33,819 bases of DNA from Clostridiales bacterium (GTDB lineage: Bacteria > Bacillota > Clostridia > Oscillospirales > Oscillospiraceae). A program made the position numbers and the translations under genes. Location: the NCBI GenBank assembly GCA_021203325.1, contig JAJQBL010000029.1, forward strand, positions 29,895-63,713, given 5' to 3'. Positions 1-7,182 of the stretch are shown piece after piece; the first letter of the stretch is position 1, and each line of letters begins with the position of its first letter. The notes below the pieces were generated by a model. The model searched no databases. It was not told where the DNA came from and saw only the letters and a program-made list of their open reading frames with translations.

Positions 1-84
1 AACCATACGGTGGGCCTGCGGTCCGACGGCACCGTGGTGGCCGTGGGGAACAATCAGTTCGGTCAGTGCAATGTGACAGGGTAG
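1..84 (+). CDS. C-terminal fragment of RCC1-repeat (alpha-tubulin suppressor-like) protein, 5' truncated by window
   Basis: Frame 1 reads NHTVGLRSDGTVVAVGNNQFGQCNVTG-stop, a typical RCC1 repeat (HTVGLRSDGTVVAVGxNxxGQCxV). Confidence 0.75.
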   Translation, partial: NHTVGLRSDGTVVAVGNNQFGQCNVTG

Positions 85-141: not shown

Positions 142-187
142 AAACAGAGGTCAGGCGCATGAAAACGCCTGACCTCTGTTTGATTTT
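142..187. terminator. Bidirectional intrinsic terminator between convergent genes
   Basis: Perfect 16-bp stem AAACAGAGGTCAGGCG (142-157) / CGCCTGACCTCTGTTT (166-181), 8-nt loop; T-rich on the + side, A-run (T-run on minus) on the other side. Confidence 0.9.
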
Positions 188-194
188 CGTTCGT

Positions 195-896
195 TCAGCG
201 GCCTTTGTTGGCCTTGCACAGGGCGTTCCGGGCCTTCAAATCCCTGGAAAGCTGTTTGCACAGATTGCCGGCCCCCGCCGCATCGCCGCCACTGATGGCT
301 GACCCCAGGGAGGAAACCTCTCCGTAAAGCCTGTCCTCCAGCTCTCTCGTGGCCGGGCTGCTGACAAAATCACTGTAGCGTATTTCCTCCGCAAGCCGCT
401 GCAAATCGTCCGCCAGAGCGGTATCCTCCGCCTGGCTGACCAGGGCCGTCGCCTGACCGTAGAACCAGCGCATAAAATCCGTACTGGTTTTAACCTCGGC
501 CTCCTGCTTTTCCACATAGCCCCTGACGCTGTCGGCGCTGATCAGTCCAATCGCCGCGCCGCCGGTCAACAGGATGTACACCACCAGCGGAACCCAGAGG
601 GGCAGCTGAGGAAAGAGGACGGAAAGGGCCACAAAAATCACGGCGCAAACCAGAAGCGCGGAGGCATACCCAAAGCCCACCCTCAAAATGGGCCAGCCGT
701 AGAATTTGCTTTTGGCCGTTCCGGCGTCCTTCAGGGCAATCCGTTCCGCAGCGGCCAGAACCAGCAGGGAGAGGACAAGAAATCCGTCCGACAGCCAGAA
801 AACCTCTGTTTTTTGAAACGGAAGCACAAAGGCGACCAGATTGCAGACAATCAGCACGATTGCCCAGGTGAGAACGTTCTTTTGAGACAGTTTCAT
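195..896 (-). CDS. Small multi-pass membrane protein with cytosolic C-terminal region
   Basis: 233-aa ORF with about four hydrophobic segments and a hydrophilic C-terminal domain; last gene of the minus-strand cluster. Confidence 0.8.
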   Translation of the reverse strand: MKLSQKNVLTWAIVLIVCNLVAFVLPFQKTEVFWLSDGFLVLSLLVLAAAERIALKDAGTAKSKFYGWPILRVGFGYASALLVCAVIFVALSVLFPQLPLWVPLVVYILLTGGAAIGLISADSVRGYVEKQEAEVKTSTDFMRWFYGQATALVSQAEDTALADDLQRLAEEIRYSDFVSSPATRELEDRLYGEVSSLGSAISGGDAAGAGNLCKQLSRDLKARNALCKANKGR

Positions 897-935
897 ATGA
901 CTTTAGCGCCCCTTTCGTTTCGGTGAAACGCCGGG

Positions 936-2593
936 TCACATCCGGCTCAGCACCTCGTTTACCTTTGCGTTGTACTGCTCCTGAGAGATCAGCCCACAGT
1001 CCAGCAGCTTTTTCATCTTTTGCAGGACGGCCGCCGGGTCGTCGTCGGCAGGCTGTGGGGCAGCGGTTGCGGATGCCCCCGGCGCGGGAGTCCCCGGGAC
1101 GGCGGCGCCCTGGAGGGCGTCTCTGGTCATGTCCACCACGCTGCCCATGGCCCCCAATGCGACACCAAGACCTGCAATGTCCCCAATGGCGTTTCCGCCG
1201 GAGCCGCCGGTGATGCCGTTCTGCATGGCCTCCAGGCCCACCTGCCGGGCGGTCTCCTGCTGATAGCTGTAGCCCTTCATCCGCATTTCCTCCGCTTCGG
1301 CGGCGGCCTTGAGGCGGTATGCCTCCGCCTCAGCCTGTGCGCCGATGATCTGGGCCTGGGCCTTCGTCTGCGCTTCGGTCAGGATGCGGTCTCTGGCGGC
1401 CGCCGCTGTCGCATGGCCGACCTGCTCCCGCTTCACATCCAGGTACTGTTTGGCGTACAGCTCTTTCATCTCCATGTACTGCCTGTGCATGGGGTCAGAC
1501 GGGTCATCCTCCGGGGTGGCAAAGCGCATGATGTAGAATTCCGTCATGGTCAGGCCATATTCCGCCAGGCTCTGATTGATGATGTCCCGCAGGGCGTCCG
1601 AAAGCTCCGCCATATGCTCGTCCAGCTCCAGCACGCTGATGGACTGCTGCCGAATCACTGTGGCCAGATAGCTCTTCACCCGGTTCATCACCAGGGCGCG
1701 GAAGTAGCCTGTCATATTGGTAGGGGCGGAGTGATACCGGTTCTGCTGCCCTGCCCCCTGAGGCGTTTGGAGGGACGTACCCATAATCAAACCGGTGGTG
1801 TTGCCCACCAGCTTCAGCAGGATGCGTTTGGAGTCGGTTGCCCGAATGTTAAACTCCCCGCTGGCGCCAATGCCGACATGAAGCCCGGAAATGGGGTCAA
1901 AGACCCGCGCCTTGGAATCTGTCCCCCATTTGATACCCATCTGGGTGGTCAGGTTGACAAAGTAAACCTCCGCGTGGAAGGGCGTCCGCCCGGCTCCGGT
2001 GGAGAGGGGATACTGTTTCTCCAGTTCGGGCAGGCTCTTTGTCTCCAGAGTGTACTGTCCGGCGGGAAATGTGTCCAGGGCCTGCCCGTCCCGGAAGAAC
2101 ACCGCCTCTTGGTTCTCGTGGACGATCAGCTGGGAACCGGACTGGAAGTTTTCGATGGGATGCTTCCAGGCGAAGGTGTGGTTGTCCCCTTCGTACTGGA
2201 GGATGCTGACGGCCGCCTCGTTGGCATAGCGCTGCTTCGCCAGCTCCCGCTTCACGTCGATTCTGCAATCGCAGATGGGGCAGCTGTAGGAGGCGGTCCC
2301 CTCTGCCGTGCTCAGCTTGACGCCGCATTCCGGGCACTGGAAGCTGACCATCTTCAAACCGGATGCCGGGGCGATCCTGGCCTTGCAGACAGGGCAGCTG
2401 GGATTTTTTTGCTCTGGTCGTAGATGATGGAGTTGCGGCAGGAAGGGCACACAATGGAGGTCATGCGCTCCGCATGAACGTCGATTTTTGCGCCGCAGCG
2501 ACAGGTGATCCTGTTCTGAAACAGCCCCCGCAGCCCGTTATAGGCGGTGACGTAATTGCCGCATTGCGGACATTCTATGGCAAATTTACCCAT
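936..2593 (-). CDS. SPFH/Band 7 (YdjI-like) protein with N-terminal zinc ribbons; frameshifted at an A7 tract
   Basis: ORF 936..2450 contains an SPFH core and C-terminal short SHOCT-like segment (LLDCGLISQEQYNAKVNEVL). The upstream frame MGKFAIECPQCGNYVTAYNG... (ATG at 2593, RBS GGAGG) continues the zinc-ribbon region if one A is added to the A7 tract at 2404-2410. Confidence 0.85.
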
Positions 2594-2645
2594 AAACCAT
2601 TTTCCTCCATAACGATAGTCCCCGCTGTGAGACGGAACGGCGCCG

Positions 2646-4052
2646 TCAGGATGCCGGGGCAATGATGCCGCTTCTGAGTTTCACTTCCAATATTTTCAGC
2701 ACGCTTTCCTGAATCCGTTCCTCGGAAATGGTGCCATCCTCCACTGCCGACAAAATGCCCTGCACCGCGCCGGTCAGGCTGGACGGCTCCAGAATCACGT
2801 CCACGCCGGCCTGCACAGCCAACACCGCCGCCTGGGCGGAGGTGTACCGGTCGGCGATGGCGCTCATCACCATGGAATCGGTGATGATCAGGCCCTGGAA
2901 GTTCAGCTCGTCCCGGAGGATACCGATCATTGTGGCGGACAGGCTGGCCGGGGTATCGTCCCCGGTCACCTCCGGAACGGAGATGTGGCCCATCATCACA
3001 AAGTCCGCACCGGCGTCAATGCCCGCCTGGAAGGGCAGAAACTCCACGCTCCGCAGTTCCTGGAGGGTTTTCAGCAGCTCGGTATAACCGTAATGGCTGT
3101 CGGTGTCGGTATCCCCGTGGCCTGGGAAGTGTTTCAGCGTGCAGAGCATTCCGCTATCCCGGAATCCCTGCACAGCTGAGGCCACCATTTCAGCCACTAG
3201 CTCCGGGTCGGAGCCGAAGGCCCGATCCCCAATGACGGTGTTGTTGGGGTTGGAGTTGACGTCCGCCACCGGCGCGAAGTCCAGGTTGAAGCCGAACTGC
3301 GCGATCTCGGTGCCGATGGTGCTGCCCACCTCGTAAGCCTTGCTGACATCCCCCGTGCTGCCGATGGTGGACATACTGGAGAAGGAGGTGGTGCCCATGG
3401 CGCTGTTGCTGCCGATACGGGCCACCCGGCCGCCTTCCTCATCCACTGCGATGAACAGGCCGATCTCCGAATAGGACTGGGTGTTGGAGATCATGGTGGT
3501 GCACTGTTCCGGCGTGAGGATGTTGGCGGCGAAGTAGACCAGCCCGCCGACAGGATGGGCCTGGAGCGCCGCCTTTGTCGTGGCCCCCGCCTGGGTGACG
3601 GCGGAGGCTCCGGTCAGCGTTTCCGGCGTGACGATAAACATCTGGTAGACCTGTTCCTCCAGCGTCATGGACGCCAGAATTTCCCGGGCCCGGGCCGTAA
3701 TGGCGGCGTCCGAATCGGTCTCTGTTTCCTCCGGCTCGGCGGCGCTTTCCGCTTCCGCGGAGCCGGAAGCGCCTTCCGCCTCCGTGGAACCGGCGGAGCC
3801 GTCCGCCTCCTGTTCGCCTTCCGTGTCGTCCGACTGCTCCGCAGCCGCCTGGGACGCCTCGGTGCCGGGTTCGGACGCCAACCCCTCAGATGCCTGCGTC
3901 AGGCTGGAGGAAGAGGCGCTGCCGGAGGACGGGGCGGTGGAACACGCCGTCAGCCACAACCCCAGCAGAGCCACAAGAGCCAGCATGACCAGCGGCCAGC
4001 GGACAGGGCCAGGTCTGCGGGAGGGGTTCCCCTGCGGATGTTGCCCTTTCAT
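2646..4052 (-). CDS. Glycoside hydrolase family 3, NagZ-like beta-N-acetylhexosaminidase, predicted lipoprotein
   Basis: Lipobox LLGLWLTACS, acidic Ser/Glu linker, NagZ signature KHFPGHGDTDTDSHYG, catalytic-region IITDSMVMSAI. Confidence 0.92.
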   Translation of the reverse strand: MKGQHPQGNPSRRPGPVRWPLVMLALVALLGLWLTACSTAPSSGSASSSSLTQASEGLASEPGTEASQAAAEQSDDTEGEQEADGSAGSTEAEGASGSAEAESAAEPEETETDSDAAITARAREILASMTLEEQVYQMFIVTPETLTGASAVTQAGATTKAALQAHPVGGLVYFAANILTPEQCTTMISNTQSYSEIGLFIAVDEEGGRVARIGSNSAMGTTSFSSMSTIGSTGDVSKAYEVGSTIGTEIAQFGFNLDFAPVADVNSNPNNTVIGDRAFGSDPELVAEMVASAVQGFRDSGMLCTLKHFPGHGDTDTDSHYGYTELLKTLQELRSVEFLPFQAGIDAGADFVMMGHISVPEVTGDDTPASLSATMIGILRDELNFQGLIITDSMVMSAIADRYTSAQAAVLAVQAGVDVILEPSSLTGAVQGILSAVEDGTISEERIQESVLKILEVKLRSGIIAPAS

Positions 4053-5140
4053 TCCGTGTACCCGTCGTCAAACTCAATGACATAGCCGACCTTCCCGCTG
4101 ACGGAGGGGAAGTCCTCCACCAGGTTATCCCGCTGGTCGTTGAAGGTCCAGCCGATGTCCTCTCCGCCATAGGCGGCGCACCACAGGCAGAGGCAGGATT
4201 CCGGCGTGCCGTCGGTATCCGCCAGGCTGGGCTCCCCAGGATACCAGGCATCGAAGCTCCAGCTCTCTCCGGTGATCCAGCAGCCGTCCTCGCCCCATGT
4301 CATTTCGTCTGTGGACAGCACCGCGCCCAGCCAGAGGTATTTCAGGCCGCTTTCCTCGGCCAGGGCACAGATGACGTCATATTCCTCCTCTGAGGTGATG
4401 GTCGCCAGATGGCCACCCGCGTCAGCCGCCGCTTCGCAGGCCTCGGACCAGGACAGGTCAGAGGCGACGATTTCGTACCGGCGCTCAGAGACGGGGACCT
4501 CGATCACTTCCTCCTCCGCTTCGGACTCCGCTTCCGGTTCCACCGACGATTCAGAGGACAGGTCGTCGTCCTCCTCCGGTTCGGCGTCCCCTTCGCTTTG
4601 GGCGGCGTCCTCCGGTTCGGCGGCGCTGTCAGAGGCGTCCGCACCGCCGTCCGCCGGGGCCTCGCTCTGGCTGGATGTCTCGCCGGCGGGGAGGGAGAGC
4701 CCGTCTGACCCATTACTGGAGGAGGAGCCGGAGAAGAACCAGCCCTGCCACATGCCGACGCCCACCACAATGCCAACCAGCAGCAGCACGAACAGCACCG
4801 CCCCCAGAATAACGGGGAGCCGGGATTGCTTCTTTGGCTGCGTTGGCTGCGGCTGCGTTTGCTGCGTTTGCCGCGCCGGCTCCGGAGGACGGACGCGCTC
4901 CGCTGGTGCAGGAGGAACCTGTCTCGGCGGCACCGGAGGCACCACCGGCGGCGTCGCCGTTATCGCCACAGGAAGATCCTGTAACAGCTCCGGCGGCAAT
5001 GCCGTCCCGTCAAAGGCGCAGAATCTGGCGCTGGTCCTCAGTACGCGGTTGCAGGACGGGCACCGGGCAATTTTATGGCCGCAGGACCCGCAGAATTGCG
5101 CTTCATCTTTTGTCGTTTTTCCACAATAAGGGCAAATCAT
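4049..5140 (-). CDS. Zinc-ribbon / single TM / C-type lectin-like domain protein
   Basis: MICPYCGKTTKDEAQFCGSCGHK zinc ribbon, second CPSCNRVLRTSARFC motif, TM segment (LPVILGAVLFVLLLVGIVVGVGMW), acidic linker, CTLD-like region (SWSEACEAAADAGGHLATITSEEEYD...YLWLGA...WSFDAWYPGEP...FNDQRDN). Stop overlaps the GH3 start (ATGA). Confidence 0.85.
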   Translation of the reverse strand: MICPYCGKTTKDEAQFCGSCGHKIARCPSCNRVLRTSARFCAFDGTALPPELLQDLPVAITATPPVVPPVPPRQVPPAPAERVRPPEPARQTQQTQPQPTQPKKQSRLPVILGAVLFVLLLVGIVVGVGMWQGWFFSGSSSSNGSDGLSLPAGETSSQSEAPADGGADASDSAAEPEDAAQSEGDAEPEEDDDLSSESSVEPEAESEAEEEVIEVPVSERRYEIVASDLSWSEACEAAADAGGHLATITSEEEYDVICALAEESGLKYLWLGAVLSTDEMTWGEDGCWITGESWSFDAWYPGEPSLADTDGTPESCLCLWCAAYGGEDIGWTFNDQRDNLVEDFPSVSGKVGYVIEFDDGYTE

Positions 5141-5181
5141 ACCTTGTTCCCCTTCTTTTTGAGAGCGGTTTGCCTGGCCCA

Positions 5182-5216
5182 CGCTGCCCTATGCCGCTGT
5201 GCGGCATAGGGCAGTG
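5182..5216. repeat. Strong intercistronic inverted repeat
   Basis: CTGCCCTATGCCGC (5184-5197) TGT GCGGCATAGGGCAG (5201-5214): perfect 14-bp stem, 3-nt loop, no T-run on the transcribed (minus) strand. Confidence 0.85.
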
Positions 5217-5242
5217 AAAAGCACAGACCTGGATTGATGCAA

Positions 5243-6389
5243 TCAGCCGTTCTTTTTCTCCCGAATCAGGCTCCGCATGGCGGCGAACTGGCTGTTGCCC
5301 ACCGAGGAACCCACCTCGCTGTTTACGCTGCACCGGAAGTTGCAGCCGCCCAGAAACAGGGTAAACTCATTGGTGATCCGGTTTTCGTAGCGGCGTTTCC
5401 GAACGTTCAACACCTTGTACAGGGACTCACTGAGGCGAACGCCCTCGATATCCTCATAGAAGCATTCTGCAGTATACTCGTCGTAAACCAGGCCGGTGGA
5501 GATGTCCACATCGCCGGAATACATCAGCACCTGGTTCTCCGTAAAGGCGTAGACGGTGACCTCCTGAAGGATAGAGCGAATCCTTCCGTTGGAACCGATC
5601 TTGCGCTTGGGAATCGGGTCAAGTTCCGTCCCCTTACGCTTGCCGAAAAACAGATTACGCAGGGTTGTGAACGCTCTACTCAGGATTGAGAGCTTGTCGA
5701 GTTGCTTCGTCTGCTTTGCACCCTCTCCTCTGGCATCAGCAAAGCTTTCATCCGGCGACCGGCCGAAGCCAACCAACACCAGCGGCTCGATCAGGCTCAT
5801 CTGCTCCTGCACCAGGTTCAGCTTTTCCAGCCCGCGCTTGCGCATGGTGGCCCTTTGCTGCTCCCAGGCGGCATCCACTTCATCCTCATGAGGGAAGCCG
5901 ATGAAATGAGACCAGATATAAATCACAGGAATCGCAAGCAGACCAACAACGATCAACATAAGCCCGATAGCATGAATAGCGTCACTCTTGGCTCTGACAA
6001 ATATCAAAAAACCAATCAGCATCACGACGTAAGGCCATTTGTACTTACGGCCAAAGAAATATTCCCGGATATGGTCGGTATTCACACCGGACTTCTGGCC
6101 GCCGGAGCCGCCGGAGTTCCCGGTGCTGCCGGGGATGTAAGCGCCGGAGCCGCCGGGGGTATAGGAGCCGGAGCTGCCGGGGGTGTAGGAGCCGGAGCCG
6201 CCGGGCGTGTAGGAGCCGGAGTTACCGGGGGTGTAGGAGCCGGAGCCGCCGGGCGTGTAGGAGTTAGAGCTTCCGGGGGTGTAGCTCCCCCCCGGTCTGA
6301 GCCGGGGCCTCTTCGGGCACCGGGGTTTCGCAGACAACGCAGAACTTGGCGTCCTTTTCCAGGGTAGCGCCGCAGTTGGGACAATTCAT
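5243..6389 (-). CDS. Zinc-ribbon protein with SYTPGGSG repeats, two TM segments and PH-like C-terminal domain; frameshifted at a G7 tract
   Basis: ORF 5243..6337 starts in low complexity. The other frame from ATG 6389 gives MNCPNCGATLEKDAKFCVVCETPVPEEAPAQTGG (good RBS GGAGG), and removing one G of the G7 (C7 on +, 6287-6293) joins it to SYTPGSS... Confidence 0.82.
6119..6286 (-). repeat. Seven tandem 24-nt repeats encoding SYTPGxSG
   Basis: SYTPGSSN SYTPGGSG SYTPGNSG SYTPGGSG SYTPGSSG SYTPGGSG AYIPGSTG, read directly from the sequence. Confidence 0.9.
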
Positions 6390-6508
6390 GATGTTTCCTC
6401 CATCTCTTCTTTTATTTCAAAAAGGCCGGGCCGCCGCATTCCGCCGCTGAAACGAAGCCTTTCTGACAAGGTTATGCCGCCCGTTCCTCAGGCGGTGCCG
6501 ACGCAGGG

Positions 6509-7102
6509 TTACAGACAGGCCGGTTTCTGGGTGCCCAGCGTTGCATAGAGCTGCGTTACCTCACGGGTGGTAAGCCCCGCACGCAGCGCCGATTGCAGTT
6601 CTTCCTGATAGGTGGGAGAGGTGCGCAGATGCTTGTTGAAATAAAAGTCATATTTTACATACGAAAGAAAATAATAGTAAATGCCCTTTCGCTGAATCAT
6701 CAGCGCCGCATGGACGTATTCCTCAATTTTGAGGATGGCCGCCCGCCCGGCCAGGAAGGGCCGCTTTCCGTGCAGCAGGGCCACCGCCGCATAGAAGTAG
6801 AGGTCCGCGTTGTTCATGTCGTCCGCCATGGCCCGCTCGAAGGATTTTTCGGCCTGGCTATGCAGGCCCAGCCGCAGGTAGCACATGGCGGCGGAGAGGT
6901 TCACCCTGCCGTTATTCGGCCGCGCCTCCAGGGGCACACGATAGAAATCCGCATAAGCATGGGCCTTTTCATCTGGCATATTGAAAAACGTATCGTAGTT
7001 GGTGATATACAGCTTTGTGCCGCAGAATTCACAAACGGGGTTGTCAATATCAATCGGCGCACCGCAGTTGGGGCATTTGGTGGAGACTGCCTGATATGGC
7101 AT
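6509..7102 (-). CDS. Zinc-ribbon plus TPR-like protein
   Basis: MPYQAVSTKCPNCGAPIDIDNPVCEFCGTKLY then TPR-like helices (VNLSAAMCYLRLGLHSQAEKSFERAMADD); RBS GGAGGG before ATG 7102. Confidence 0.82.
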   Translation of the reverse strand: MPYQAVSTKCPNCGAPIDIDNPVCEFCGTKLYITNYDTFFNMPDEKAHAYADFYRVPLEARPNNGRVNLSAAMCYLRLGLHSQAEKSFERAMADDMNNADLYFYAAVALLHGKRPFLAGRAAILKIEEYVHAALMIQRKGIYYYFLSYVKYDFYFNKHLRTSPTYQEELQSALRAGLTTREVTQLYATLGTQKPACL

Positions 7103-7153
7103 AGAAAACCCTCCTTCGACGCATAGCGACAAAATCATTCCAATTATGTTAAT

Positions 7154-7182
7154 ATTATACAAGGTTGAACAGTATGTGTCAA
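7154..7182 (-). promoter_or_regulatory. Perfect-consensus sigma-A promoter for the zinc-ribbon cluster
   Basis: Minus strand TTGACA (7182-7177), 17-bp spacer, TATAAT (7159-7154). Confidence 0.85.

Follow-up and report, generated by a model that had tools for sequence, protein, structure and literature searches.

A PspA-free SPFH operon of Oscillospiraceae with a constant membrane partner and a possible role in cell-wall surveillance

Introduction

How might an SPFH protein of the soluble kind be held at the membrane in a bacterium that has no PspA, and what would the zinc-ribbon proteins encoded beside it do there? These questions are raised by a six-gene cluster in a 33,819-nucleotide stretch of DNA from a Clostridiales bacterium of the Oscillospiraceae (contig JAJQBL010000029.1, positions 29,895 to 63,713), the whole of which was analysed and is hereafter called the window. 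In Bacillus subtilis, the SPFH protein YdjI is soluble, has no membrane anchor and carries a C-terminal zinc finger; its recruitment to the membrane needs the membrane proteins YdjG/H, and it recruits PspA in turn (PMC8581546). The ydj system has also been described as a band-7 protein with zinc-ribbon partners (PMC11237479). As far as the literature that we searched shows, YdjI-type SPFH proteins have been studied only together with PspA.

Results

The six genes, g1 to g6 in transcription order, lie on the minus strand and are bounded by one promoter and one terminator (Table 1), with intergenic gaps of about 119, 102, -4, 52 and 39 nt. A first-pass annotation of the window had described them as a cluster behind a perfect promoter, and the short gaps, the terminator and a promoter whose hexamers and spacing are identical in five species (the window, G124, G138, G141 and G137) bear this description out: the six-gene operon is real. 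The terminator also serves the plus strand, for a convergent zinc-ribbon gene with RCC1 repeats. The latter belongs to a tandem pair (L047 11709-13979) converging on the operon terminator, the second copy lying just outside the window; RCC1 genes occupy the same place in G124; next to the operon of G138, G141 and G137, no such gene was found. Zinc ribbons had been read at the N-termini of four genes, which holds for g1 and g3, both above Pfam cut-offs, whereas in g2 and g5 the ribbons stand here in a separate frame. The only other ribbon-like N-termini in the window belong to a ferredoxin-like gene and to one spurious ORF.

Table 1. Coordinates of the operon and its boundaries, numbered from the first letter of the window
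Feature	Position	Strand	Remarks
Convergent zinc-ribbon/RCC1-repeat gene, 3' end	1..84	+	L047 12963-13979; second copy L047 11709-12926
Intrinsic terminator, 17-bp stem	142..181	-	End of operon; strong
g6, four membrane helices and cytosolic helical bundle (predicted)	195..896	-	AF2 pLDDT 91.3; constant SPFH partner
g5, N-terminal zinc ribbons, SPFH (Band_7_1) and SHOCT-like C-terminus	936..2593	-	PF13421 111.7 bits, 5e-32
A7 run, g5 frame break	2404..2410	-	N-frame from ATG 2593, TGA 2356-2354; SPFH-frame ATG 2351
g4, membrane-anchored GH3 (NagZ/YbbD-type)	2646..4052	-	PF00933 278 bits, 1e-82
g3, double zinc ribbon, one TM, acidic/Pro stalk and C-type-lectin-like domain	4049..5140	-	PF12773 34.2 bits
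g2, zinc ribbon (MNCPNCG...), SYTPG repeats, membrane segment(s) and C-terminal domain	5243..6389	-	Frame-broken here
G7 run, g2 frame break	6287..6293	-	Ribbon frame from ATG 6389 stops at 6264; G6 would keep frame
g1, zinc ribbon and TPR-like, 197 aa	6509..7102	-	PF13248/PF13240/PF13431 above cut-off
Sigma-A-type promoter, TTGACA-N17-TATAAT	7154..7182	-	Sigma70 consensus 12/12

Conservation of the neighbourhood in related genomes had been set beforehand as a test of the cluster, and the cluster withstood it. Near homologues of ada (84-94%) define a subclade of seven species, and the six-gene order, its site and the upstream luxS-mtan-ada-ppox flank are common to the window, G124, G138, G141 and G137, together with the promoter; the 3' flank of the operon varies between species. 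The sister species G122 has those parts of the operon that its contigs cover. In the seventh species, G148 (apparently L109), g1 and g2 are gone, and a deletion that runs from early g5 to mid-g6 has fused what remains of the two.

The first three genes differ in how far they can be traced. The g1 product is 73-82% identical across four orthologues and, among 291 genomes of the class, was not found outside the subclade; a homologue that is 41-43% identical lies in L081, two genes before another SPFH gene. The SYTPG repeats noticed in g2 at first reading are encoded by a 24-bp tandem repeat of 6.9 copies. The C-terminal domain of g2 was present in only one of the 291 class genomes, the window's own; it had no match in a PDB profile search and, in a test for a PH fold, gave a model with a pLDDT of 39.6 from an alignment of five sequences only, which leaves the PH-like fold of the first-pass annotation unsupported. 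Since g1 and this domain are essentially specific to the subclade, most of the putatively envelope-facing part of the system would be recent. The C-type-lectin-like domain (CTLD) proposed for g3 was recovered in matches to solved C-type-lectin domains in the PDB, down to about 1e-6, and falls just under the cut-off of PF00059 (21.3 bits against 22.6; E 5e-4). Of the calcium-sugar motif of C-type lectins (EPN/QPD plus WND), the second part is present as W-T-F/M-N-D, and the canonical EPN reads EPS in all six orthologues, so that sugar binding is uncertain.

The gene g4, first described as a NagZ-like GH3 lipoprotein, kept one half of that name. It is a GH3 protein closest to B. subtilis NagZ/YbbD, with 3bmx and 4gyj as its best PDB matches, and its Asp-His dyad (D318/H320) and nucleophile (D392) align with those of 3bmx and are invariant in six orthologues. 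Of six orthologues, in contrast, only two have LTAC as their lipobox, the rest reading LTAS, LTAN or LTAH; with the lipobox cysteine thus not conserved, we rejected the lipoprotein reading and take g4 to have, more plausibly, a signal-anchored, uncleaved or otherwise processed N-terminus. The likeness to NagZ/YbbD enzymes lies in the catalytic domain, dyad and nucleophile, whereas g4 has a signal-anchor and an acidic/Ser stalk, stops after the first GH3 domain and belongs to an SPFH operon. A CTLD protein and a hexosaminidase that is catalytically intact by its residues, translationally coupled through a 4-nt overlap between g3 and g4, might also suggest surface glycan scavenging, in which the two would capture and cut GlcNAc-containing glycans while the SPFH and ribbon proteins merely organise them. 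We regard this as very unlikely, as the operon holds no transporter, SusCD-like or sugar-catabolic genes and as such a scheme gives little reason for four cytosolic ribbon proteins.

The description of g5 as a zinc-ribbon/SPFH gene is corroborated by its Band_7_1 match and by the orthologues of G124, G138, G141 and G137, in which ribbon and SPFH domain form one intact ORF. The protein shows no evident transmembrane segment, and the SPFH profile gave only marginal matches in the PDB, to ribbons and coiled coils. In the window, g2 and g5 each have a one-base frame break in a homopolymer lying between ribbon sequence at the N-terminus and the main part of the protein, while the four orthologues that span both sites have both genes in a single frame. 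The same A7 break in g5 occurs in G122 (L077), a distinct species with 91.5% nucleotide identity in ada and 90-96% elsewhere. Measured by dN/dS, g3 to g6 are under purifying selection (0.03-0.12 for g5), and the SPFH codons past the A7 break, compared between the window and G122, give 0.03-0.10. Generally poor assembly is an unlikely source of the breaks, because no break occurs in the other genes that are syntenic with G137/G141 and because A7 recurs in G122; the remaining multi-frame flags were, by inspection, antisense or two-gene-spanning ORFs.

Slippage, re-initiation and decay are all possible at the G7 and A7 runs. From the sequence, a -1 slip on A7 would give back the orthologous g5 sequence, and the TGA-AG-ATG stop-start (2356-2349) would permit re-initiation of a product that still has the SPFH domain together with the final ribbon. 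That the operon is decaying in the window genome, with both breaks as pseudogene mutations, would agree with the presence of two one-base breaks within one operon and with the congener L109/G148 lacking g1, g2 and most of g5; it seems to us improbable nonetheless, given that a second species shares the A7 break and yet keeps the downstream g5 codons constrained, and that the syntenic genes around are intact. The breaks here and the losses in L109/G148 do indicate that the system is dispensable.

The last gene, g6, has no Pfam or NCBIfam match and no PDB-fold relative at E<=0.001; the assignment of its membrane helices is a reading of hydrophobicity on the AF2 model. An alignment of the SPFH protein, used to scan genome contigs, found 28 loci in Clostridia, 27 of them with an SPFH gene. 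Counted as loci and not as phylogenetically independent events, g6 lies directly downstream on the same strand in 25 of these 27, as it does in the window and its orthologues, and, of 19 loci that were located independently through g6, 18 have the SPFH gene directly upstream. A deeper g6 profile extended the pair to several Bacillota genomes at a greater distance, where most of the matches likewise have SPFH and g6 together. SPFH and g6 are an almost inseparable pair, widespread in Clostridia.

Some copies depart from the usual layout. At L157 and L159, in distant Bacillota, the SPFH and g6 genes overlap where they meet, and the next gene encodes a small membrane protein with a zinc ribbon at its C-terminus. 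At L122-L125 and L127, the g6-like domain forms part of a longer fusion protein of TPR/DUF6273 type, of about 430-550 aa. In the cultured strain Butyrivibrio fibrisolvens D1, plasmid pNP21 (L164, NZ_CP146965.1) has an SPFH gene with a g6 homologue, possibly split, behind it; restriction, recombinase and toxin-antitoxin genes lie close by.

The neighbours of distant SPFH-g6 copies are mostly zinc-ribbon/TPR/TIR proteins whose consensus is a ribbon-like N-terminus and whose C-termini vary. A domain scan of 57 such neighbours found TIR_2 in 30, and their C-termini included RCC1 (9), DUF6273 (6), BspA-type LRR (3) and trypsin-like (2) domains, among others. The TIR domain of these cassettes aligns with that of Brucella TcpB, including a Glu in the W-x-x-x-E segment. 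The window operon resembles the clostridial cassettes in an SPFH protein with N-terminal ribbons and in g6 immediately downstream; the cassettes differ in having, instead of g1 to g4, TIR-bearing putative clients with RCC1, LRR, Ank or DUF6273 C-termini, and in lacking the CTLD and GH3. No zinc-ribbon/TPR/TIR gene occurs in the window operon or its four orthologues, and TIR_2 in the window genome is confined to contig C9. As judged from gene content, TIR-type neighbours appear to be replaced, in the subclade of the window, by ribbon-tagged CTLD, TPR and membrane proteins together with GH3. We found no description of SPFH, zinc-ribbon and TIR operons in the open-access literature that we searched.

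A further SPFH-g6 cluster, which includes TIR genes, lies on contig C9 of the window genome (G000, L033), next to a relaxase-like ORF. Over 10,261 bp, C9 matches contig C33 of another species (G150) at 99.96% identity, owing either to recent transfer or to mis-binning of a contig. The first zinc-ribbon/TPR/TIR gene of this cluster (L033 7011-8672; L078 4561-6222) is itself broken up among several frames, in the same way in the two genomes.

The frequency of TIR_2 among the neighbours, the glutamate aligned with TcpB, the variable C-termini, the Butyrivibrio plasmid copy beside restriction and toxin-antitoxin genes and the near-identity of the C9 copy to one in another species all speak for a derived immune or conflict cassette, that is, an ancestral TIR defence with variable sensors on an SPFH-g6 base from which the TIR protein was lost or replaced here. 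We consider this origin unlikely to explain the operon: PADLOC gave only weak and scattered matches to known defence families, the window operon and its orthologues are free of TIR genes, and the operon is vertically stable at one site.

The observation that no PspA is visible near the operon extends to the whole window genome, in which PF04012 has no match, while 9 of 14 control genomes match; dependence on PspA is therefore ruled out. None of the six genes matches TPM, the domain of the YdjH-type partner. Band_7_1 (PF13421) also matches in B. subtilis, and in the window genome it is limited to g5 and the C9 copy.

Discussion

We propose, tentatively and as the likeliest of the readings, though not one that we rate as probable, that the operon encodes a PspA-independent SPFH-g6 membrane platform with ribbon-tagged clients, which here would monitor the cell wall. 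In this proposal, g5 would be a soluble SPFH protein that g6, its constant partner, tethers to the cytoplasmic membrane, and the ribbon proteins g1, g2 and g3 would dock on the platform as clients or adaptors. The clients in most Clostridia would be zinc-ribbon/TPR/TIR proteins with variable C-terminal domains, whereas those of the subclade would face the envelope: the CTLD of g3 is predicted to lie outside the membrane, and g4 to be a membrane-anchored NagZ-type hexosaminidase on its outer face. The operon would then most likely monitor and locally trim wall or surface glycans, and the state of the wall or glycan would be passed to a cytosolic SPFH/TPR assembly. We infer this envelope-surveillance function from anatomy and linkage. 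The place given to g6 follows from an SPFH protein with no evident transmembrane segment, from the four predicted helices of g6 and, by analogy, from the requirement of YdjI for YdjG/H, which together make g6 the probable anchor of an SPFH platform that does without PspA.

The closest known counterpart is pspA-ydjGHI of B. subtilis, with YdjI as the SPFH protein, YdjG bearing zinc ribbons and transmembrane segments and YdjH a TPM protein. Both systems have, in one operon, a soluble Band_7_1 SPFH protein with zinc ribbons and a zinc-ribbon membrane partner, and both probably form a membrane scaffold. In contrast, ydj has no g6, CTLD or GH3, and the window operon has N-terminal ribbons, no PspA in its genome and no recognised TPM or YpeB/NTF2-like partner. 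Because the defining component PspA is absent, the operon falls outside the PspA-Ydj system, although by analogy it may work like it. The comparison with YdjI, YdjG and YdjH made in the first-pass annotation was thus sound as regards the shared Band_7_1 domain and the anchorless YdjI (PMC8581546), and the annotation was right in kind about an SPFH/zinc-ribbon system associated with the envelope, but it missed the partner g6, the link to TIR proteins and the two frame breaks. The flotillins FloA/FloT with their NfeD partners also place an SPFH scaffold next to a membrane protein; g5, however, belongs to a different SPFH subfamily, without a membrane anchor of its own, and neither Pfam nor fold comparison links g6 to a known partner.

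A broader reading, about which we are more doubtful, takes the ribbon as a modular docking tag for interchangeable clients on the SPFH-g6 base: TIR effectors with RCC1, LRR or Ank sensors in most Clostridia, and lectin-like, TPR and membrane proteins here. The operon would be a polymorphic membrane-surveillance system in which immune-type and wall-type outputs are swapped and in which slippage at the homopolymers between ribbon and body may tune expression. The ribbon-like N-terminal consensus of the neighbours, combined with their variable C-termini, fits a common N-terminal docking tag.

Many gut Clostridia thus have a PspA-free SPFH protein with a constant partner, g6, usually linked to TIR proteins. 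This opens to experiment the question of how SPFH scaffolds without an anchor come to lie at the membrane, and of whether zinc ribbons act as docking tags through which one scaffold may serve immunity-like or cell-wall functions.
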